From Candidatus Hinthialibacter antarcticus (GTDB lineage Bacteria > Hinthialibacterota > Hinthialibacteria > Hinthialibacterales > Hinthialibacteraceae), in assembly GCA_030765645.1 (NCBI GenBank), contig JAVCCE010000007.1, positions 1 through 64,000 on the forward strand: a stretch of 64,000 bases of DNA, in the 5' to 3' direction. Made by a program: the position numbers and the translations under genes. Every line of letters begins with the position of its first letter. Positions within the stretch are counted from its first letter, which is position 1. The notes under the pieces were generated by a model that worked only from the letters and a program-made list of their open reading frames with translations, was not told where the DNA came from and ran no database searches. Of the stretch, positions 3,241 to 55,590 are shown in pieces.

Positions 3241-3978
3241 TTACTCGCTGGTTTTTGGTTCTTCAGTCGCCGCGTCAGGCGCTGGCGCTGTTTCGACCGG
3301 AGCAGGTGCAGGCGCTGGTTCAGTCGCTACAGGAGCCGCTTCGGCTGGCGCTGGCGCTGTTTCGACCGGAGCGGGCGCAGGCGCTGATTCAGGCGCGACC
3401 GGAGCCGCTTCGGCTGGCGCTGGCGCTGTTTCGACCGGAGCGGGCGCAGGCGCTGATTCAGGCGCGACCGGAGCCGCTTCGGCTGTGGGCGCTGCTTCAA
3501 CAGGCTCTTCTTCCGTTGCAGGAGCAGCAGCGGCTGCAGCAGCGGCTTCGGCTTCTTGCTCTGCGGCCTTTTGAGCAGCGGCTTCTTCGGCTGCTTTAGC
3601 GGCCAAGCGTTCTTTTTCCGCTTTATCTTTTTGCCGTTGCAAACGGTCGGCGTCGCGTTTTTCTTGAATCAATTTTGCTTTAGGAACCTGCATAATCATG
3701 TTGCGCAAAATTGATGTACGCGTATGAAACAGTTCACGCAGTTCAACCGGGGTCGCCGGCGTGGCTTGGAATTCGAGATCGACGTAAAAGCCCTGCGTTT
3801 TCTTTTTGATTGGATAAGCGAGTTGCCGTTTGCCCCAGATATTTTCTTTGGTAATCTTGCCGCCGCTATTCGCAATCGTCTTTTTGACTTCTTCTTCGGC
3901 TGCTTTAATATCGGTTTCGGGCAGGCTGGCGTCGATGATATACAAAATCTCATACAGACGCGATAATGCTTCAGTCAT
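3241..3978 (-). CDS. rpsF: 30S ribosomal protein S6 (bS6) with a long Ala/Pro/Glu C-terminal tail
   Basis: The first ~100 residues are a normal bS6: LYEILYIIDASLPE near the start, then the conserved WGKRQLAYPIKKKTQGFYV. It continues with a charged Ala/Glu/Lys helix (about residues 115-155) and then a proline/alanine-rich acidic tail built on a 23-residue repeat. At 245 aa it is about two and a half times the usual length. A strong TTAGGAGGT lies 7 nt before the ATG. S6 pairs with S18 in the 30S platform, and both genes of this operon are extended. Confidence 0.94.
   Translation of the reverse strand: MTEALSRLYEILYIIDASLPETDIKAAEEEVKKTIANSGGKITKENIWGKRQLAYPIKKKTQGFYVDLEFQATPATPVELRELFHTRTSILRNMIMQVPKAKLIQEKRDADRLQRQKDKAEKERLAAKAAEEAAAQKAAEQEAEAAAAAAAAPATEEEPVEAAPTAEAAPVAPESAPAPAPVETAPAPAEAAPVAPESAPAPAPVETAPAPAEAAPVATEPAPAPAPVETAPAPDAATEEPKTSE
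3287..3490. repeat. 69-bp tandem repeat inside the rpsF tail
   Basis: Three units of 69 bp beginning at 3287, 3356 and 3425, each encoding 23 residues of Ala/Pro/Val/Glu. Units 2 and 3 are almost identical at DNA level and unit 1 is more diverged. The period is a multiple of three, so copy-number changes would keep frame. Confidence 0.85.
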
Positions 3979-12565: not shown

Positions 12566-13198
12566 ATGGGGAAGAAAGCGTTTACATTAATTGAACTTCT
12601 GATTGTCGTCGCCATCATCGGCATCCTCGCAGCAATCGCCGTACCGAACTTCTTGAACGCACAGATTCGCGCCAAAGCGGCCCGTACGTTCTCTGACCTC
12701 CGCACATTGCATGACCAGGTCAGCATTCGCCAATTAGACACTGGCCTTTGGTTGATCGACGGAAACGACTCTGGCGACAGTATCAATCCAGAAGGCTGCA
12801 AATACCCAAGCCATCTTGGTCAAGCATTCGGCAAGACATGCGGAAACTCCAATGTGGTTTGCAATGGAATTGGCGATAACTTCTTTGATGGACGCATTTG
12901 GGCGCAATTGACGACCCCAGTGAACTACATGGGCTCCATTCCAACCGATCCCTTTGCTAACGGCATGTTTTACGGTTACGAAGACCGTGACTGCGCGAAC
13001 GGCGAAGGACGCAACAACCACTGGTTGATGTTTGCCGCCGGCCCTGACGGCGACCACGGCGACTGGATCGACCGTAACGCCGAAGCCTATAACCCCTCAA
13101 ACGGCGTCACCTCAAATGGCGACATCTGGCGCGCCCACGTCTTCAAAGACAGTTTCTTCACCACCGAATTTTTGGGCATCACCATCGTTACCTTCTAA
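12566..13198 (+). CDS. type II secretion/type IV pilin-like protein 1
   Basis: Prepilin-type protein of 210 aa. After a 5-residue basic leader, cleavage is expected between Ala and Phe of A|FTLIELL, with Glu5 conserved, followed by the hydrophobic assembly helix. The next segment (PNFLNAQIRAKAAR) is almost the same in four of the five family members here. Downstream come LTTPVNYMGSIPTDPF, AAGPDGD and the C-terminal SNGVTSNGDIW. Cys residues are present in the globular part. No pilus machinery is nearby, so pilus versus secretion pseudopilus is open. AAGAGG precedes the ATG and a terminator follows. Confidence 0.88.
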   Translation: MGKKAFTLIELLIVVAIIGILAAIAVPNFLNAQIRAKAARTFSDLRTLHDQVSIRQLDTGLWLIDGNDSGDSINPEGCKYPSHLGQAFGKTCGNSNVVCNGIGDNFFDGRIWAQLTTPVNYMGSIPTDPFANGMFYGYEDRDCANGEGRNNHWLMFAAGPDGDHGDWIDRNAEAYNPSNGVTSNGDIWRAHVFKDSFFTTEFLGITIVTF

Positions 13199-13258: not shown

Positions 13259-13386
13259 ATTTCCCATAAATACAATCGGTTTATCCCTAAAATTTTTACT
13301 GGACTCAGGGTTTTAATAATACTATATTGATGAATCGCATTTATTATAAATTGATTCGATTCTGTTTATTCTGAGGAGATACTTTG

Positions 13387-14076
13387 ATGTTAAAAAAGCA
13401 AGGTTTTACGCTGATTGAACTACTGATCGTTGTTGCCATTATCGGAATTTTGGCCGCAATCGCCGTTCCCAACTTTTTGAATGCGCAGATTCGCGCCAAA
13501 GTCGCGCGTAGTTATTCTGACATGCGGGCGACATCAACGGCGGTGGCTATTTTTAATACGGATCGAGGCATGATGCTGGTTGATATCCGTGACGATGATA
13601 CGGATATTGGACAAAAACGCATTCAGGAAGAATTCTCCGGCGTGGGCTGGAACGGCGGCGGCGGCAACCGAAATAACTTAGCCGTATTGTCTCCATTAAC
13701 GACCCCAGTCGCCTATATGGGGAGCCTACCGATTTCACCATTTGTTAATTCCAGTTTGTTCACAATCAGCGGTGGAAACAATGAAGCCTACGGACGAATT
13801 GGCAACCAGTATTACGCCTATTGGGACAATGACCCTGAAATCAAAGAACCAGCCGGCAATAATCATAATGACTGGAACCTCGCCGCGCTATCAAACTATG
13901 TCAGTAATTTTACTCCCTGGAGCTACGTTTTCATTACCTTTGGCCCCTCGGCTGGAACGGACAACACGACCAACACGCTTGAACCCTACCAACCGTCAAA
14001 TGGAATCACCAGCGCTGGCGAAATCTTCTTATTTAACAGCGGCACCAACAACGAGAACGTGCAGAGAATCAACTAA
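13387..14076 (+). CDS. type II secretion/type IV pilin-like protein 2
   Basis: Second pseudopilin of the tandem set, 229 aa. Leader MLKKQG precedes FTLIELLIVVAIIGIL, and the IRAKVARSYSDMR helix matches gene 1. It carries LTTPVAYMGSLPISPF, an ITFGPS block and the C-terminal SNGITSAGEIF, all family hallmarks. The globular domain is rich in Asn and Gly. ATG chosen over an in-frame TTG one codon upstream because GAGGAG lies 8-9 nt before it. It is a single transcription unit bounded by terminators on both sides. Confidence 0.87.
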   Translation: MLKKQGFTLIELLIVVAIIGILAAIAVPNFLNAQIRAKVARSYSDMRATSTAVAIFNTDRGMMLVDIRDDDTDIGQKRIQEEFSGVGWNGGGGNRNNLAVLSPLTTPVAYMGSLPISPFVNSSLFTISGGNNEAYGRIGNQYYAYWDNDPEIKEPAGNNHNDWNLAALSNYVSNFTPWSYVFITFGPSAGTDNTTNTLEPYQPSNGITSAGEIFLFNSGTNNENVQRIN

Positions 14077-14267: not shown

Positions 14268-14831
14268 ATGAATCGGAAAAAAGCATTTACGCTGATTGAA
14301 CTTCTCATCGTTGTAGCTATTATCGGGATTCTAGCGGCGATCGCCGTCCCTAACTTTTTGAACGCGCAAATGCGGGCGAAAATCACTCGCGTCAAGGCTG
14401 ATTTTCGTACCGCCAGCACGGGATTTTCGATGTATCAATTGGATCGCAACGCCCACCCTCCCGATCCGGGCGGCCCCTGCGTAGACTGGCAAGCATACGC
14501 CAGACTGACAACGCCAATCGCGTACGTCAGCAGTTTGGAAATGTTCCGCGACTTTTTCACCAATGAAGGCGCGGAGGGTGCGATTGGCGCGGCGTGCGAC
14601 CTGACGTTTTATGATTATGGCCAAGTGCCATACATCGCCGAGTCGGGCGTTGGATATGTGGTAATCAGTTTTGGTCCTGACCGCGACCTTGATATGGGAT
14701 GGAACGCAGGCTCAATGGACGCGTTGAAAAGCATGGAAGGCAGTAGGCTTACATTTCTCTATGACGCATCAAACGGACTGGTTTCATCGGGCGATTTAAT
14801 TTTGTCCGCGTTGGGCGTTCATAATAGATAA
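14268..14831 (+). CDS. type II secretion/type IV pilin-like protein 3
   Basis: Third tandem pseudopilin, 187 aa. MNRKKA|FTLIELL leader and cleavage region, NAQMRAKITRVKADFR helix, then LTTPIAYVSSLEMFRDFF, ISFGPDRDLD and the C-terminal ASNGLVSSGDLIL. GAGGT lies 6 nt upstream of the ATG. The shared mid-protein and C-terminal blocks show that similarity to genes 1 and 2 is not limited to the secretion signal. Followed by its own terminator. Confidence 0.87.
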   Translation: MNRKKAFTLIELLIVVAIIGILAAIAVPNFLNAQMRAKITRVKADFRTASTGFSMYQLDRNAHPPDPGGPCVDWQAYARLTTPIAYVSSLEMFRDFFTNEGAEGAIGAACDLTFYDYGQVPYIAESGVGYVVISFGPDRDLDMGWNAGSMDALKSMEGSRLTFLYDASNGLVSSGDLILSALGVHNR

Positions 14832-23119: not shown

Positions 23120-23680
23120 ATGAAGACAATGACTCAGGCGTTTACATTAATTGAATTGCTGGTGGTGGTCGCCATTATCGGCATCTTGACTTCGATTGCG
23201 ATGCCGAACTTTCAACACGCGCAAATCAAAGCCAAAACCACCCGCGCATTGGCTGACATGCGAACCCTGGTCACCGCGTTAGAAGCCTACTCGACTGATA
23301 ACAACAGCTATCCACTCGATGGAAACGATTACTTTGAACGGGACGAATCGCTCTACGATCAGATTCGCATTCAATCCGTGCTGACCACGCCGGTTCCGTA
23401 TATTTCAGAAATTTTCTCTGACATTTTCCATACGCGCGAGACGCAGATTAACGATCCATTGGTGAAGCGCCTGTTTCAGGATCGCCCGCCGTTTCCTTAC
23501 GTCTACACGACCAAAGACAACATAGTGCTTCACCGGGGCAACCCTCACGCATACTTCATTTTCAGCTTCGGCCCGGACCAGGATTTTGATAATGCCTCCA
23601 GCAAACCGGAAGACATACTCGTCTACGATGCGACCAACGGCATCATCTCTGATGGCGACATTCTCCGTAAAGGCCCTTAG
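23120..23680 (+). CDS. type II secretion/type IV pilin-like protein 4
   Basis: 186 aa. The leader ends TQA|FTLIELLVVVAII and is followed by PNFQHAQIKAKTTRALADMR, more diverged than the other members. LTTPVPYISEIFSDIF, FSFGPDQDFD and the C-terminal ATNGIISDGDIL keep the family pattern. It is downstream of truA on the same strand and converges on the PQQ dehydrogenase gene. The processing motif is standard and the adjacent 77-bp gap could hold its promoter. Confidence 0.87.
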   Translation: MKTMTQAFTLIELLVVVAIIGILTSIAMPNFQHAQIKAKTTRALADMRTLVTALEAYSTDNNSYPLDGNDYFERDESLYDQIRIQSVLTTPVPYISEIFSDIFHTRETQINDPLVKRLFQDRPPFPYVYTTKDNIVLHRGNPHAYFIFSFGPDQDFDNASSKPEDILVYDATNGIISDGDILRKGP

Positions 23681-25568: not shown

Positions 25569-26159
25569 TTATTGATAGATGCGGGCGTTGGTGGAAATAA
25601 TATCGCCGGAGGAAACCAGCCCGTTGGTGGTCGAATAAAAAATACCGCCGTCTTGATTTGGCCCGGCGTGAGCAGGGTCTTTCAAGAGAACCAGCGTTTC
25701 AGCTAATAGCGCCCAGGGCCAATTGGGTTCACGGTCCGGCCCCCAGCCAAACAGAAAATACTCAACGCCCGCATTTTTGAATTTTGCCAATCGCTCGGCG
25801 TCGCCCAGGCTGCCGATGTGGACGCCGGAACCGTAAGCGAAATACTGCCCGTCGTCTTCTTCATTATGGCTTTTGAAAATATCGCGAAAGGGATCAATGC
25901 TGGAAAGATACGCGACCGGCGTCGTCAGCGCATAATACGTTTGTCCCGTTTGCGCATCAGGGCCGTAATCAACGGGGACATTGTTGTTATCGACCTGGTA
26001 AGCGGCGATCGCCGTCTGGATGGATTTCATCGAGCCGTACGTCGCCGCGAGTTTGGCGCGGACTTGAGCGTTCAAAAAATTAGGGACCGCAATCGCCGCT
26101 AGAATTCCAATAATGGCGACGACGATTAAAAGTTCAATCAGTGTGAAGGCGGATTTCAA
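25569..26159 (-). CDS. type II secretion/type IV pilin-like protein 5
   Basis: 196 aa, TTG start (TTG AAA TCC GCC), with a very short leader before A|FTLIELLIVVAIIGIL and NAQVRAKLAATYGSMK. The family blocks LTTPVAYLSSIDPFRDIF, LFGWGPDREP and TTNGLVSSGDII are present. It is immediately upstream of the PQQ dehydrogenase gene on the same strand (15-bp gap), so the two are probably one transcript. Confidence 0.86.
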   Translation of the reverse strand: MKSAFTLIELLIVVAIIGILAAIAVPNFLNAQVRAKLAATYGSMKSIQTAIAAYQVDNNNVPVDYGPDAQTGQTYYALTTPVAYLSSIDPFRDIFKSHNEEDDGQYFAYGSGVHIGSLGDAERLAKFKNAGVEYFLFGWGPDREPNWPWALLAETLVLLKDPAHAGPNQDGGIFYSTTNGLVSSGDIISTNARIYQ

Positions 26160-47445: not shown

Positions 47446-50400
47446 ATGACCGTACGTTCGCTATTTGTTGGGCTTACCGGCCTTAACGCACAAAGCCGAA
47501 ATATTGACGTAATCGGCAATAACATCACCAACGTCAACACCGTCGGGTTTCGCGGCAGCCGCGTCGCCTTCGACGATATCTTCTACAACACCATGTTCTC
47601 GGGCGCAGGCGCCACTGGCAACCGGGGCGGCATCAACCCGCGTCAAACCGGGCTTGGCGTCAAAGTCGGCAGCGTCGACACCATCTTTACGCAAGGCAGC
47701 ACTCAAACTACCGGGCGCTTGCTCGATATGGCGATTGAAGGCCGAGGGTTCTTCGTCTTGCGCAACGGCTCCGGGCAAGAATTTCTGACCCGCGCCGGAA
47801 ACTTCTCGATTGACAACGAAGGTTTCATCGTCGATCCAGGAACAGGCCTTCGTCTCATCGGACGCTCGTCGGACGAAAACGGTCAGTTGCAAACAACCGA
47901 AGCGCCCGGCGAATTAAACATTGATTTCGACCGCAAGTCGCTGGCGAAGCAAACCGAAAACGTGATCGCGTCCGGCAACTTCGACAAACGCATTGGCGAC
48001 CCCAATGAAGACATCGACATTCAACTCGCACAAAAAACAACAAACTTACAAGGGTTGTTCGATAACGTCGGTCAACCATTCGGGCTTATCAACGGCGATA
48101 CCATTCGCTTTGAAACCGGTTTTCTTGAATTGGGTTCCCCGCCGAATGATGTAGACGGCCCGGTCAATCTGACTCAACAAGACATCGGCTTCGGCGACGG
48201 CGTTTTGATGAGCGTCACCAGCACCACAACAATCGAAGACGTCGAAACCGCATTAAATGACTATTTTGAAACCGTGATGCGTGATATCGATCCGACCAAG
48301 TCCGCTGATATCAAAGTAACGTACGACACCGGTTCGGGTTCGTTCATCTTTAATAATTTCGGCAACAATACTCTAGCGGGAATCCGTATGGGCGTCGGCG
48401 AACGTCTGAGCCAAAACGAACCGCCGGAAGACGCTAACCGCGCCGTCGGCAATTTGTTTATTAACTCTTTCGATTCTGACAATCCTGATTACACCAAAAC
48501 GCTAAACGTGCAAGCGGGCGAAACCATTCAAACCAATTCGATCCGCAAGGCCGATCAAACCACTTCTCTTGACGTGTTTGACTCGCAAGGCGCCTCACAC
48601 ACCATTAATGTGGGTCTCGCCGCTGATACCGCAAACCCGCCCGCAGAGTCGTTGACTCAAGTCGGTCAACTGCGCGATTCAAACGGACAGTTTATGTTTG
48701 AAGGCGGTGTGGTTCCGCCCAAGGTTGTGTATAGCGACCCGATCATTGATTCGGCCACGAACACAGCCGTGTTTACCGCGAGCCAGGTCAGTAACATGGT
48801 CGCCACTCAGGGCATCTATAGTTTTAATGACGCCAATGACAACCTCATTGCCCTACGCCTGACCGACGGCGCCATCTCGTTCAACGGCGGCGCGTTTAAT
48901 GTTCCAATCGGCGCGGACGGCGCGGTCAGCGCCGAATTTTCCGCAGCAGGCATCGACGTGACCGGCGATTCATTCCTCAACATTACCAGCACCGGCAATG
49001 CAGGCGGCGGTTTGTTGGGCGACGCAGGTTTTTCTGAAACCACAACCACAGAAGATATCCGAAACAATATTGAAGAACGCATTAATTCCGCCATCCGCCA
49101 GGTTGCGGCGAATATCGACCAACTGGACCCATTGACCACAGGCTTCACAGGCGGCATTCCAGCGAATCTGGCCATCCCGGCGAATATCCCGCAGATCACG
49201 GTTTCGTTGACAAGCGAAGGTTCGTTTGCATTCAATAGTGAAGACGGCAGTTTAGGCGCTTCGGCCTCGACCGACCCGACCATCACAGCAAACTTGATCG
49301 CAGCGGCGGGCGGCGCGGAACAGATGGGCCTCGTGCTTGATCTCGCCGCCGAGACCCGGACGGTGCGGGTTAGCACCATCGACCGTCGCGGCACCTTAGC
49401 AGACGCCACCGACGATATCGCAGACGGTAAAGTGGATGCCGATTTCACCGACGGCGGCGGCATCACAGGATTTATCGCCAATGCAAATCCATTTGCCACC
49501 AACCTGCAAGATGCGTTCACCATTGGAAACACCGACTACGAAGGCAACTTTGATGCGACGGGCGATCCCTCCGCCACGCCTCCAACAGGAATTGACGACT
49601 CAGGCGTTCAACTGGTCGCGTTAAGTTCGGGCGTACTCGCAACCAACGACGCCTTAACGACTGAGAGTTTTGACGGTTTCCAGGCATTTGACCCTGAAGT
49701 CACAGCATTCAGCGCTATCTTCAATCAACGCGGATACGGCGTTGCAGCCGATTTTGACGGAACAACCGGCGTTGACCGTACATCCGGCGTCCCCGTGGGC
49801 ATCGTCGCCCGTGGGACCGACACCACCGCGTTTGAAACCAACACGCTCTTAAAAGACGGCTTAACGCGCAGCACCGTCAACTTCCAAGCCGTCGTCCCCA
49901 GCGACAACCGTACGCTGCCCACGCAAACCATCGGCGAATTGATCTTTGACCCCAGCGGACGTTTTGACACGTACGGCGACACTGACTTAACGCCGAACAT
50001 TACCTTCGACCCAGACAACTCCGATCCAGCCAATGGCGGCGTCGATCCCATCGCGTTCCGGCTGGACCTGAGCGGCATCACATATTTCAGCGCCAATTCA
50101 ACCGCACAGTTACAAAGCCAAGATGGGCGCCCGGTGGGCAATCTTGATAACGTGAGTATTGCTGGCAACGGCGAGGTGATCGGCGTCTTTACCAACGGTG
50201 ATTCACAAACATTGGGGCAAATTCTATTGGCTGACGTCACCAACGACGGCGGTTTGATTCAAGAAGGCGCAACCTTGTTTACCGTGGGGCCAAACTCAGG
50301 CGAGCGAGTCTTTATCGAGCCGGAAATTGAGGGAGGCGTCATCAATTCCGGCGCATTGGAACTCTCAAACGTCGACTTGGCGGAAGAATTCACCAACCTG

Positions 50401-50490
50401 ATCGTTGCGCAGCGAGGCTACTCAGCCGCCAGCCGAATCATTACAACCGGCGACCAGATTCTTCAGGAAACCTTGCGACTGAAACAATAA
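47446..50490 (+). CDS. flgE: flagellar hook protein FlgE, unusually long
   Basis: 1014 aa. The N-terminus (SLFVGLTGLNAQSRNIDVIGNNITNVNTVGFRG) and C-terminus (ELSNVDLAEEFTNLIVAQRGYSAASRIITTGDQILQE) are the conserved axial helices of hook proteins. The RLLDMAIEGRGFFVL block follows the first helix. Enteric FlgE has ~400 aa; the extra length is in the middle (about residues 200-850), which is variable surface-exposed D2/D3-type sequence rich in Asp, Thr and Gly. GGAGGT lies 8 nt before the ATG; a terminator follows. Confidence 0.95.
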   Translation: MTVRSLFVGLTGLNAQSRNIDVIGNNITNVNTVGFRGSRVAFDDIFYNTMFSGAGATGNRGGINPRQTGLGVKVGSVDTIFTQGSTQTTGRLLDMAIEGRGFFVLRNGSGQEFLTRAGNFSIDNEGFIVDPGTGLRLIGRSSDENGQLQTTEAPGELNIDFDRKSLAKQTENVIASGNFDKRIGDPNEDIDIQLAQKTTNLQGLFDNVGQPFGLINGDTIRFETGFLELGSPPNDVDGPVNLTQQDIGFGDGVLMSVTSTTTIEDVETALNDYFETVMRDIDPTKSADIKVTYDTGSGSFIFNNFGNNTLAGIRMGVGERLSQNEPPEDANRAVGNLFINSFDSDNPDYTKTLNVQAGETIQTNSIRKADQTTSLDVFDSQGASHTINVGLAADTANPPAESLTQVGQLRDSNGQFMFEGGVVPPKVVYSDPIIDSATNTAVFTASQVSNMVATQGIYSFNDANDNLIALRLTDGAISFNGGAFNVPIGADGAVSAEFSAAGIDVTGDSFLNITSTGNAGGGLLGDAGFSETTTTEDIRNNIEERINSAIRQVAANIDQLDPLTTGFTGGIPANLAIPANIPQITVSLTSEGSFAFNSEDGSLGASASTDPTITANLIAAAGGAEQMGLVLDLAAETRTVRVSTIDRRGTLADATDDIADGKVDADFTDGGGITGFIANANPFATNLQDAFTIGNTDYEGNFDATGDPSATPPTGIDDSGVQLVALSSGVLATNDALTTESFDGFQAFDPEVTAFSAIFNQRGYGVAADFDGTTGVDRTSGVPVGIVARGTDTTAFETNTLLKDGLTRSTVNFQAVVPSDNRTLPTQTIGELIFDPSGRFDTYGDTDLTPNITFDPDNSDPANGGVDPIAFRLDLSGITYFSANSTAQLQSQDGRPVGNLDNVSIAGNGEVIGVFTNGDSQTLGQILLADVTNDGGLIQEGATLFTVGPNSGERVFIEPEIEGGVINSGALELSNVDLAEEFTNLIVAQRGYSAASRIITTGDQILQETLRLKQ

Positions 50491-50520
50491 GTTAGAGTGA
50501 AATAGAAACAAGCAGAAACG

Positions 50521-50549
50521 GGAGGGTCTTCGAGGCCCTCCTTTTTTTT
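50521..50549 (+). terminator. terminator of the fliK-flgD-flgE operon
   Basis: GGAGGG/CCCTCC stem followed by eight T, about 30 bp past the flgE stop. Confidence 0.9.
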
Positions 50550-50696: not shown

Positions 50697-50904
50697 TACT
50701 TAATTGAATGTAACATTCGATTTATCAAATAGATGGTAACCTCAAATTCAGGAGAAGCCAAACGGCGGCCCAATGGTATTAGATCCCATTGATTCCGAGC
50801 GCGTACAACGGATTCGCAACAATTTGGAAATTGAATTTTCCAAGCCGATTACGCACAAAGAGATCCAAGCGGCCATCCCCGGTGTTCCCGTCAGGAGTAA
50901 TGCC

Positions 50905-51096
50905 TTGATCGAAGTTACGAAATTGAATGACAAAAAGTTTGGCATAAACTCTGAGTTGATTGAAACAATCGAAGAAACGCCTGACACTGTCATCACCATG
51001 GCGACCGGACGTAAATATATCGTAAAAGAATCGTTGGAAGAAATTGGACAGCTTTGCGTCGAATATAAACGAAAAATTTTCCATCCAGGAGAGTAA
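50905..51096 (+). CDS. flbD: flagellar protein FlbD
   Basis: Small protein found beside motA in many flagellar operons; its role is not well defined. The 63-aa reading IEVTKLNDKKFGINSELIE...PDTVITMATGRKYIVKES matches the full length of FlbD. TTG start chosen: AGGAG lies 7 nt before it and the family begins at this point. The frame is open to an ATG at 50773, which would add 44 residues, but that ATG has only a GGAG 18 nt away. The extension looks codon-biased, so a longer form cannot be excluded. It ends 3 bp before motA. Confidence 0.82.
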   Translation: MIEVTKLNDKKFGINSELIETIEETPDTVITMATGRKYIVKESLEEIGQLCVEYKRKIFHPGE

Positions 51097-51099
51097 CCG

Positions 51100-51864
51100 A
51101 TGGATTTATCAACAGTAGTAGGAATGGTGTTGTGCCTGGGGCTGATTGCGGCGTCAATGATCGCTGGTGGTTCGCCCGGAGCGTTTATTGATATTCCTTC
51201 AGCATTGACAGTTATCGGCGGCACCTTCGCCCTTACGCTGGTGAATTTCCCCATCCCTACCGTGTTGGGCATGGGCGGCGTTGTGAAGAATGCGTTTTTT
51301 TTCAAACAACTCTCCCCACTCGACACCGTCAGCACCCTGGTTAGTTTTGCTGAACGCGCCCGCCGCGAAGGCATCCTGGCGCTCGAAGGCTCAATGGACG
51401 AAATCGAAGACGATTTTATCGGGACCGGCCTACGCCTGGCGGTCGATGGCGTTGAACCGGAATTAATTAAAGACATTCTGCAAACAGAACTCGCGTTTAT
51501 TGAAGACCGTCACCGTGGAGGCCGTGAAATTCTCGACTTTATGGGGTCGATTGCCCCTGCGATGGGCATGATTGGAACGCTAATGGGGCTTGTGCAGATG
51601 TTGAAAAATCTTGCCGATCCAAACGCCATTGGCCCTTCGATGGCGCTGGCGCTGTTGACGACCATGTACGGCGCGGTCATCGCCAACGTATTCGCAATCC
51701 CTGTTTCGGGTAAACTAAAAGTACGCTCTGCGGACGAGATTCTACTTAAAGAAGTCGCCATCGAAGGCATCATGTCGATTCAAGCCGGCGACAACCCGCG
51801 AATTTTAGAGCAGAAATTGCTGGCGTTTTTGGCGCCGAGTATGCGCCCGCCGCGTGAAGATTAA
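51100..51864 (+). CDS. motA: flagellar stator protein MotA
   Basis: 254 aa, four membrane spans; with MotB it forms the ion channel that powers rotation. It starts with a span (VVGMVLCLGLIAASMIAGG) and has the second span after PSALTVIGGTFALTLVN. The cytoplasmic loop is rich in charged residues (FAERARREGILALE, IEDRHRGGREILDFMGSIAPAMGMIGTLMGLVQML). PSMALALLTTMYGAVIAN is the last span. It follows flbD by 3 bp with GGAGAG before the ATG. Confidence 0.96.
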   Translation: MDLSTVVGMVLCLGLIAASMIAGGSPGAFIDIPSALTVIGGTFALTLVNFPIPTVLGMGGVVKNAFFFKQLSPLDTVSTLVSFAERARREGILALEGSMDEIEDDFIGTGLRLAVDGVEPELIKDILQTELAFIEDRHRGGREILDFMGSIAPAMGMIGTLMGLVQMLKNLADPNAIGPSMALALLTTMYGAVIANVFAIPVSGKLKVRSADEILLKEVAIEGIMSIQAGDNPRILEQKLLAFLAPSMRPPRED

Positions 51865-51961: not shown

Positions 51962-52798
51962 ATGGCAGGAAGAAAACCGGAAGAAAAAAAAGGCGGCGCT
52001 CCTGAGTGGATGTGTACATTCAGCGACATGATGTCGTTGTTGCTGTGCTTTTTTGTGCTTCTGTTCTCTCTTTCCACCATTGAAAAAAAGAAACTGATCC
52101 AAGCGTCGGGGTCCTTGAAAGGTGCGTTTGGAGGCATGCCCGCGCCGTATGTGGTTCCGCCCATTCCCGATAAAAAAACGCAGCCGGAGATGTCGCGCCC
52201 CGCCCAGCCTGTGCGCAAGCAGTTTTACGGCAAAGAAGAAATCACCCGCGAAGAAGCGCGAAAGGTCAAATCAAAAAACCTGGACCACATGATTCAAGTG
52301 ACGGGCACGGAACAAGGCATCACCTTTCGCCTGTCGGGAGACTTTTCGTTCGCGCAAGGCAATTCGGAGTTGCTATCGGAAGGGATTTTAGCGTTACAAT
52401 TTATTGCAGACGAAATCAGCCAGTTTCCGAATAACCCCATTAAAGTCGACGGGCACACCGACAACACAAAACGTCGCAGCGATCCTGACTACAACTGGCG
52501 GCTGGCGGCGGACCGCGCCTATACCGTCCTCGAATTTCTGGTCAACACTGGCAGCGAGCGAAACCGGGTGGATAAACGCCGATTTTCGTATGAATCATTC
52601 TCCGATACAAAACCGCTGCCCGACGTCGACCCCAATCAGGCGATTGGTCGTTCGCTGAACCGCCGCGTTGAAATTACATTAATTCAAACGGACCAAGGCT
52701 TCGGCACCACCTTTGAAGATACAAGCGAAAAGAATCCAAGAACACCGTTAATCAGCCCTGCGCTGATTCAAGAACCCGAAGCAACCGAAGAGAGTTAA
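51962..52798 (+). CDS. motB: flagellar stator protein MotB, copy 1
   Basis: 278 aa. MAGRKPEEKKGGAPEW then one span with the proton-path Asp in TFSDMMSLLLCFFVLLFS. A plug/linker region is followed by the peptidoglycan-binding OmpA-like domain: PIKVDGHTDN, NWRLAADRAYTVLEFL and GRSLNRRVEITL. It lies 97 bp after motA; that gap has no gene. It is followed after 1 nt by a second motB with an almost identical N-terminus. Confidence 0.94.
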   Translation: MAGRKPEEKKGGAPEWMCTFSDMMSLLLCFFVLLFSLSTIEKKKLIQASGSLKGAFGGMPAPYVVPPIPDKKTQPEMSRPAQPVRKQFYGKEEITREEARKVKSKNLDHMIQVTGTEQGITFRLSGDFSFAQGNSELLSEGILALQFIADEISQFPNNPIKVDGHTDNTKRRSDPDYNWRLAADRAYTVLEFLVNTGSERNRVDKRRFSYESFSDTKPLPDVDPNQAIGRSLNRRVEITLIQTDQGFGTTFEDTSEKNPRTPLISPALIQEPEATEES

Positions 52799-52799
52799 G

Positions 52800-53618
52800 A
52801 TGGCGGGCAGAAAACCAGAAGAGAAAAAAGGCGGCGCACCGGAATGGATGTGCACCTTCAGCGACATGATGTCGTTGTTGTTGTGCTTCTTTGTGTTGTT
52901 ATTTTCTCTATCCACCATGGAAAAAGTCAAATTCGTCCAAGCCATTTCCTCGATCCAAGGGGCGTTAGGGCGAATTCCCAATATGTACAATATGTCCTTC
53001 GTCCCCTCCACTTCGACTGCGCCGCAAAAAGTGGAACCCGTCCAACGCACCCGCGACGTTGAACGCGCAAAAGAAGCCATCGCGGAGCGCGCGCGCTCGA
53101 TTCTCGTCGCCGACGAAGCGTCGAAAGAAGTCATCGTCGAAGGCGTAAAAGAGGGCGTACGTTTTTCCATCACCGGGCGCGTATTGTATGACCAGGGCTT
53201 TGCCGTCTTGTCTCCAGAAGGCCAAAAAGTTCTAAAAACATTGGCGAACGATATCCTTAATGATTTTCCTAAACTGCGGATCAGCGTTGAAGGCCATACC
53301 GATGACACCATGGTTCCGCCGGAATTGCCGTTTCAAGACAACTGGCGGCTGGCGGAAGCGCGCGCCTATGGCGCCATGTTATTTTTACGCGACCAATGCA
53401 ACGTCGCAGAAGAACGATTAAGTTTTCAATCCTGCGGGATGGACCGCCCGCGCTTTCCAAACGATTCGCCGGAGAACCGCGCCTTAAACCGCCGCGTTGA
53501 GATCGTATTGTTGCAAGGACAATCGTCTGAGAATATCACCGGCGTCCTGGAAGGCAGCAGCGACTCTAAAGTAAGCCCGGATGAGCGCGAATTCGTCCCG
53601 CTGCTCGAAGAAGAGTGA
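52800..53618 (+). CDS. motB: flagellar stator protein MotB, copy 2
   Basis: 272 aa. The first ~40 residues match copy 1 except for about one residue, while the periplasmic part is clearly diverged: LRISVEGHTDDTMVPP, NWRLAEARAYGAMLFL and NRALNRRVEIVL. Both copies retain the channel Asp and the OmpA-like domain. DNA in the shared segment also remains similar with mainly silent differences. One motA serves two motB genes here. Confidence 0.94.
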   Translation: MAGRKPEEKKGGAPEWMCTFSDMMSLLLCFFVLLFSLSTMEKVKFVQAISSIQGALGRIPNMYNMSFVPSTSTAPQKVEPVQRTRDVERAKEAIAERARSILVADEASKEVIVEGVKEGVRFSITGRVLYDQGFAVLSPEGQKVLKTLANDILNDFPKLRISVEGHTDDTMVPPELPFQDNWRLAEARAYGAMLFLRDQCNVAEERLSFQSCGMDRPRFPNDSPENRALNRRVEIVLLQGQSSENITGVLEGSSDSKVSPDEREFVPLLEEE

Positions 53619-53667: not shown

Positions 53668-55590
53668 TTGAACCAGACGTATTTTGAATCCAATTTATCC
53701 CTACTTGAACGACAAGACCCTGAATTGGCAGCGCATTTGCGTCAATTGCCGATGGAGGACCTTCCGGTTCAAGTCTCCATCTCAAAAACAAAAACCGTTG
53801 CCGCTCAATGGCAAGCGCAAGACGGCGGTCGTCCCATCCCGCTCTGTAGTGAATATGACCCGGTGCGCGAAGCAACGCGCTGGGCGGAATCTATCGCGTT
53901 TCAAAACCCCACAAACGTGATCGTGATGGGCTGCGGCCTTGGTTTTCATCTGTTAGCGTTATTAAAACAAAGCGATCAAGACATCCGTTTTTTATTCATC
54001 ATTGAGCGCGACCCGCGCATTCTCAAACTCGCAATGACAGCGATGGATTTGCGGCCTCTGTTCATGCGCAACGGCGTTCAATGGATTGTCGGCGCTGAAC
54101 CCAAAGAGATTCCCGAACTCATCGGCGAAAAGCGGACGGACATTATTCTGCACAATTGCAAAATACTAAACCATGATCCTTCGTTGCGCATTTTTAGCGA
54201 CTACTACAAAGAAACGCGTCAACAAATTCTTGATGCGCTGACGCATGACGAGATCAACCTTCGTACGACGTTTGAGAGCCAGGGCCGCAACCAATTCAAC
54301 ATTTTAATGAACCTTCCTGCGATGGTGCGCGGGTATGCCCTGCCCCCGCTGCAAGGTTTGTTGAAGGGCTACCCGGCGGTGGTTTCAGCAGCGGGGCCGT
54401 CTCTAGACAATAATGTGCGGCTGCTCAAAGAACTCAATGACCGGGCGGCGCTGTTGATTGTCGACACGGCCCAATCCACCTTCAAACAACTGGGCGTTGA
54501 ACCCGACGCCGTGATTACCGGCGACCCAACGCCGCTAAATTTCAGCCATTTTGAAACCATCGGTTCGCTGGGAAACGCATTTTTGGGCTTCCACCCGGAA
54601 GCGAACCATCAGATCACGCGCAAATTTCTCCATCACCCCTATTTGCTGCCGTTGTATGACGGTGAGTCTGCGTTAATCAGCCATATTTTCAACTTGGATG
54701 AAGACGGCGTGTATTGCGAACGTGAAATGAACGTCGGCCACATCGCGCTCAATGTTGCTTTATTACTGGGATGCGACCCCATCATATTGGTTGGCTTTGA
54801 TTATGCGTTTCCCAAACGCGGCGGCACAACCCACGCCGCCCAAGCCGCCGTCTCACGCCGGATCGACGCCATGCAAACGGACGGCACCATCAACATCGGC
54901 GGCAAAGAAGGCAAAGCGCCGGAAGAATCGGGCAAGATGATGCTGGTACCCGGCTATGACGGCGACCCGGTCCCGACAACGGTCCCGTTTCAGCAATACA
55001 TTCACGCATTGGAAAAAGCCATCGGAGAATGCGACGCAACCATCATCGACGCCACCGAAGGCGGCGCAAAATTTGAAGGCGCCGTCCAAATGACATTGCA
55101 AGACGCCCTGAATAAATACGCCCTCCAACCGGGCGTTTCAAACCACTGGGCCTCGTACCGCGCCAATAAGCCGTCCATCTCCATCCAAGACGCGCTGGCG
55201 CGCAGCAACGAATGTCTGAATGCACTCAAACAAGCGCAACAACAAAACAAACAACTCGATGAACAACTACGCCAATGGACGGGCCTGCTGCAACAGCCGC
55301 AACTAGACAGCGCTCTCGTTGAAAACGAATGGAATTCATTCGACAAGCGTTGGATCGAAATGGTGGAGCCAGAAATTTTTAACGCCAGCCTGGGCAATGC
55401 GGTACAATACTTATACTTCCGCCGACAGCGTCACGTCCGCCCGGCGGATCCATCACCCAAAGCCTTTTTGCGCTGTATGCACGACAAATATACTGGCATC
55501 ATCGAAGAAATGACCGGACTCTTAGACCATTTCATTCATTGCTTTGAATTGTCCATGCAGTTGTTGCAACAAAGCGCCCAAGGAGAGTAA
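53668..55590 (+). CDS. motility accessory factor Maf (DUF115 glycosyltransferase)
   Basis: 640 aa. The central region has PAVVSAAGPSLDNNVRLLKEL and ALLIVDTAQSTFKQLGVEPDAVITGDP, the MptE/DUF115 fold of flagellin-glycosylating Maf proteins, with PIILVGFDYAF downstream. The N-terminal part (TNVIVMGCGLGFHLLALL) is the usual Maf N-domain. It would add nonulosonic acids to flagellin, although the donor is unknown. TTG start with GGGGAG upstream. It lies 49 bp after motB copy 2 and 2 bp before a GT4 gene. Confidence 0.88.
   Translation: MNQTYFESNLSLLERQDPELAAHLRQLPMEDLPVQVSISKTKTVAAQWQAQDGGRPIPLCSEYDPVREATRWAESIAFQNPTNVIVMGCGLGFHLLALLKQSDQDIRFLFIIERDPRILKLAMTAMDLRPLFMRNGVQWIVGAEPKEIPELIGEKRTDIILHNCKILNHDPSLRIFSDYYKETRQQILDALTHDEINLRTTFESQGRNQFNILMNLPAMVRGYALPPLQGLLKGYPAVVSAAGPSLDNNVRLLKELNDRAALLIVDTAQSTFKQLGVEPDAVITGDPTPLNFSHFETIGSLGNAFLGFHPEANHQITRKFLHHPYLLPLYDGESALISHIFNLDEDGVYCEREMNVGHIALNVALLLGCDPIILVGFDYAFPKRGGTTHAAQAAVSRRIDAMQTDGTINIGGKEGKAPEESGKMMLVPGYDGDPVPTTVPFQQYIHALEKAIGECDATIIDATEGGAKFEGAVQMTLQDALNKYALQPGVSNHWASYRANKPSISIQDALARSNECLNALKQAQQQNKQLDEQLRQWTGLLQQPQLDSALVENEWNSFDKRWIEMVEPEIFNASLGNAVQYLYFRRQRHVRPADPSPKAFLRCMHDKYTGIIEEMTGLLDHFIHCFELSMQLLQQSAQGE

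Follow-up and report, generated by a model that had tools for sequence, protein, structure and literature searches.

In current models of stator rotation, the two MotB subunits are taken to be identical, with their two Asp residues acting alternately inside the MotA ring. Operons that encode one MotA and two MotBs are natural tests of this model. Two types of MotB in one cell are familiar from two-stator systems, such as the Bacillus MotAB/MotPS pair or species with two sets of MotAB, in which each B subunit has an A subunit of its own. In Bacillus subtilis, two stator types are reported to undergo exchange (PMC7595845). The closest described arrangement is the motA-motB1-motB2 operon of Aquifex aeolicus, where the two MotBs are 97% identical in the N-terminal/transmembrane part and 23% identical in the periplasmic/C-terminal part (PMC4525482). 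Chimeras in which either Aquifex MotB N-terminus was joined to an E. coli periplasmic part were functional in E. coli together with MotA (PMC4525482). Here, we describe a tandem motB pair in Candidatus Hinthialibacter antarcticus (NCBI GenBank: GCA_030765645.1), within the first 64,000 nucleotides of contig JAVCCE010000007.1 (the window).

Results

The stator operon lies behind flgE (47446-50490), with a terminator-like hairpin (50520-50542) in the interval between flgE and flbD. The first gene is flbD (50773-51096; Pfam FlbD, 3.7e-26), followed by motA (51100-51864; MotA_ExbB, 2.1e-30), motB1 (51962-52798; 278 residues), motB2 (52800-53618; 272 residues), and a gene for a Maf-like flagellin glycosyltransferase (53668-55590; MptE-like, 9.6e-27; Maf_flag10_N, 3.3e-8), all on the plus strand. 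The Maf-like gene is a conserved downstream neighbor that was also seen at loci L047 and L039. By this gene order, both MotBs are encoded with MotA amid flagellar genes. A single nucleotide separates motB1 from motB2, and no sigma-70-like site reading into motB2 was found near its start.

The initial annotation had described a nearly identical N-terminus that includes the channel Asp, followed by a strongly diverged linker and peptidoglycan-binding part, and both its description and its coordinates proved right. Residues 1-39, including the channel residue Asp22, are identical in MotB1 and MotB2 (51962-52078 and 52800-52916, 39 codons each on the plus strand; the second copy was also found as direct repeat D1, 83% over 152 nt), and residue 40 is Ile in one and Met in the other. 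All 17 of the nucleotide differences among the 117 positions beneath this segment are synonymous. The membrane core is identical at 28 of 28 residues, while identity beyond the shared N-terminus drops to 33% (225 aligned residues). Both proteins carry MotB_plug (66.6-68.2 bits against a cut-off of 24; 4.5e-19 for MotB1 and 1.4e-18 for MotB2) and Pfam OmpA (2.1e-12 and 1.4e-10), with Asp22 present and aligned in each. MotB1 thus comprises the channel Asp, plug, linker, OmpA-like peptidoglycan-binding domain, and a conserved C-terminal tail of its own; in MotB2, the same N-terminus is followed by a linker, OmpA-like domain, and tail that differ from those of MotB1.

AlphaFold monomers, built from 8-sequence alignments (mean pLDDT 61-63), gave both copies an ordinary MotB layout; as single-chain models they do not bear on pairing. 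For MotB1, a transmembrane helix (16-38), a plug helix (43-56), and a linker helix (91-104) were predicted at modest confidence, with an OmpA-like fold after them, and the MotB2 model matched periplasmic structures of MotB/PomB/MotS (E down to 7e-13). Region by region, the paralogues of one genome are 95% identical in the membrane core, compared with 91-94% for orthologues. The corresponding values are 43% versus 67-71% for the plug, 19% versus 59-62% for the linker, 39% versus 60% for the OmpA domain, and 10% versus 49-55% for the tail. Thus, MotB1 and MotB2 each have a conserved linker and tail of their own. In G003 and G005, MotB2 has lost the peptidoglycan-binding Asp (GHTD); this was rejected as proof of a non-anchoring subunit, as single-copy MotBs of the sister orders lack this Asp too.

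Elsewhere in the window, the products of five type IV pilin-like genes (12566-13198, 13384-14076, 14268-14831, 23120-23680, and 25569-26159) begin with an almost invariant N-terminal helix (FTLIELL.VVAIIGIL) but differ in their bodies; like the MotB pair, they combine a common membrane part with variable outer parts. Two genes named by eye, at 2306-2776 and 3241-3978 (minus strand), encode two ribosomal proteins: S18, extended at its N-terminus by a long Gly/Arg/Pro-rich stretch, and S6, whose C-terminal tail is long, repeated, and rich in Ala and Pro. S18 and S6 touch on the ribosome.

A single MotA had been proposed for the two MotBs, and the genome bears this out: no second motA pairs with either copy. 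The MotA_ExbB profile (PF01618) matched three proteins, one of them the window MotA; the other two are of the TolQ/ExbB type, one encoded before TolR/ExbD-like and TonB/TolA-like genes and the other directly before exbD. A search of this genome with the window MotA protein returned only itself, and the PF13677 profile found just the two MotBs. As to sodium coupling, a trait considered for the Aquifex type, the window MotA scores best against the NCBIfam models PomA and MotP but falls short of the cut-off of each. The MotA_N Pfam model is too weak as a MotA detector in this lineage. One relative, G003, encodes an extra MotA-like protein (L088:2804-3535) that is 50% identical to MotA over residues 37-253, with a FliM-like protein (named by eye; L088:5659-6561) nearby; its N-terminus is unlike that of MotA, and no motB was seen beside it in the 8 kb read. 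In another relative, G005, motA lies on another contig (L089), is just 66% identical to the window motA, and may have been replaced, while flbD, motB1, motB2, and the Maf-like gene are still together (L047:5024-7341).

The duplication is conserved in relatives. All nine sampled genomes of the order (the window genome, five others of its family, and three of a second family) contain the pair, always in tandem, and both copies keep the channel Asp in every one; loss of this residue from one copy, which the initial annotation had considered as evidence against its reading, was seen in none. Orthologues of motB1 and motB2 each occur in the eight relatives, separated by -11 to +38 nt, with neither copy lost or moved away. 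Recurrence in all nine genomes excludes a chance origin of the pair. Among sister orders of the same class, four of five genomes have one motB, and the remaining genome carries motAB at two separate loci. A tree of the periplasmic part only recovered MotB1 (100/98, ultrafast bootstrap/SH-aLRT), MotB2 (99/94), and the two together (100/96) as clades, and a second tree, which included the membrane part and many more families, agreed. On these trees, a single tandem duplication is placed at the stem of the order.

Gene conversion or purifying selection had been offered as the cause of the N-terminal identity, and the synonymous sites decide largely in favor of the latter. By the Nei-Gojobori method, dN is 0.011 in the N-terminal segment of the window pair and 0.86 in the remainder, whereas dS is 1.74 and 1.63, respectively. 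Both parts, the identical one included, are thus saturated at synonymous sites, which argues for purifying selection rather than recent conversion. Identical synonymous codons are somewhat more frequent between paralogues within a genome than between genomes, and this excess is similar in the segment (0.51 versus 0.43) and the remainder (0.46 versus 0.41), as expected from shared codon usage. We consequently reject recent conversion between neighboring copies as what maintains the identity; a present-day role for it is very improbable. Two observations speak for conversion: the variable cytoplasmic tail (MAGRKPEEKKG) is also common to both copies here, unlike in most relatives, and Aquificaceae-type pairs show lower synonymous divergence in the segment (dS 0.34-0.94). 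Older, occasional conversion may have occurred. Purifying selection is the simple explanation that the codon comparison supports.

To place the pair among other tandem motBs, we surveyed 386 genomes, of which 174 (126 families) had a MotB_plug match, and read the same-strand close pairs among the matches listed. Of the 126 families with MotB, at least 19 have tandem motBs downstream of a single motA; the sample is uneven, and all counts are lower bounds rather than exact frequencies. They fall into two classes whose ranges of core identity do not overlap. Where both copies keep the Asp (at least six families, two of them from this order), the membrane core is 75-100% identical and the rest 28-41%. 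Where one copy lacks it (at least 13 families), the core is 21-48% identical and the rest 24-49%. In this second class (loci L060-L064 and L066-L079; e.g., L072:3042-4470, L061:2603-4091, and L063:2420-3905), the Asp is replaced by Ser, Ala, Asn, or Thr, and the Asp-less copy may come first or second. Four of its lineages (G227, G148, f39, and G169) have the pair amid fliL, fliM, flgE, flbD, fliD, or fliO genes, as in the flgE-motA-motB'-motB-fliL-fliM order of G227, where one tandem MotB lacks the channel Asp. Three tandem families (f72, f77, and f189) adjoin unusual FliG-like genes or cluster in the tree with such cases and may not belong to ordinary flagella. The two motBs are separated by other DNA in G226 and at the second locus of G355, there by a kinase gene. 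G149 was omitted from the classes because its residues for peptidoglycan binding fail to align and core identity is just 29%. Searches of the open-access literature for heterodimeric stators, tandem motB, and Asp-less MotB returned only the Aquifex papers, which is weak evidence of novelty.

Discussion

The survey changes how the conserved membrane part should be read. It had been taken to support one shared MotA; the single MotA stands, but identity does not follow from sharing, as at least 13 other families share a MotA at 21-48% core identity. Across the alignments, membrane identity instead goes with retention of the Asp in both copies, and this clean split offers a simple, checkable rule. 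Judged from the same comparison, both MotBs of the window class are most likely full channel halves with specialized anchors, and the Asp-less class hints at stators that are obligate heterodimers and have just one ion-binding site. The window class raises the question of whether a stator can have two unlike anchors, and the Asp-less class that of whether one ion-binding site suffices.

For the window pair, we tentatively propose a mixed stator, MotA5:MotB1:MotB2, a reading toward which we lean slightly and which we hold at somewhat less than even confidence. One MotA would serve two complete, co-translated MotBs, both derived from one tandem duplication at the root of the order. Both copies would be working ion-channel halves in which selection holds the membrane segment constant, while the plug, linker, peptidoglycan-binding domain, and tail would have specialized separately in MotB1 and MotB2. 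Made together, the two would pair into a stator whose ion-binding Asp residues are equivalent but whose two anchors differ; we infer this pairing, the difference in anchoring, and the role in motility. The lean rests on the tight coupling of the genes, on the fact that neither copy is ever lost, and on the Asp-less class, in which the odd copy is presumably useless alone. An Asp-less copy in a true flagellar operon should not drive a motor by itself, which suggests that tandem MotBs can act as obligate partners. G005 adds a point for pairing, as its motB1 and motB2 remain together behind flbD though its motA is on another contig. Against pairing, the identical membrane halves should give no preference for MotB1:MotB2 over MotB1:MotB1 or MotB2:MotB2, so the periplasmic parts would have to supply any such preference, and the Asp-less pairs, as a different class, may have no bearing here.

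The Aquifex chimeras indicate that such halves can also work as homodimers, since each MotB N-terminus, once fused to the periplasmic part from E. coli, functions with MotA (PMC4525482). Interchangeable stators, MotA5:MotB1(2) and MotA5:MotB2(2), swapped by load, wall chemistry, or viscosity as their anchors differ, are thus a serious possibility, if a somewhat less probable one in our judgment. Each N-terminus would be a complete channel half, and the linker and tail are specific to each paralogue, within which they are well conserved. Exchange itself has a reported precedent in the two B. subtilis types (PMC7595845), yet in known cases each exchangeable stator comes with its own A subunit, and co-translation across a 1-nt gap would leave little scope for separate regulation. 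That neither copy has been lost or moved apart in nine genomes also sits poorly with alternation. Were MotB1 and MotB2 instead to assemble with MotA in all combinations, largely redundant and kept for dosage, the identical membrane halves and the probably coupled expression would be accounted for; dosage leaves unexplained, however, why strongly diverged linkers and tails have been separately conserved over the age of the order, and we consider a random mixture unlikely. Heterodimers of the MotA5:MotB:MotB' type might be widespread and repeatedly evolved. They would comprise a both-Asp class, seen in the window, in Aquifex, and in three further lineages, that joins an identical membrane part to two different wall anchors, and a single-Asp class whose stators run on one ion-binding site; we regard this broader view as plausible but a little doubtful.

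Among known systems, the two-stator bacteria resemble the window in having two MotB types per cell and differ in providing each B with its own A, where the window genome has one MotA. The Asp-less tandems, like the window, place two motBs after one motA, several of them in flagellar operons, but one copy lacks the Asp and the cores are unlike, whereas the window keeps the Asp in both copies and the cores identical. A. aeolicus is the nearest match, with one motA, two tandem motBs, a near-identical N-terminal/transmembrane part, a diverged periplasmic part, and the Asp in both. Our survey recovered Aquifex-type pairs, with the published Gly20/Ser20 difference, in G023, G171, and G310, three members of a single family. 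The window pair belongs to a different lineage, lies behind flgE-flbD and before a Maf-like gene, and has saturated synonymous sites, which those of the Aquifex type are less so. Shared ancestry was tried and is disfavored by the clade uniting MotB1 and MotB2 and by AU tests against joining MotB1 with Aquifex MotB1 (p = 0.026) and, at the borderline, MotB2 with Aquifex MotB2 (p = 0.052); separate duplications in the Aquifex-type family and in this order are favored. Most likely, the window pair arose independently and by convergence on a layout already known from Aquifex, here kept across the sampled order.
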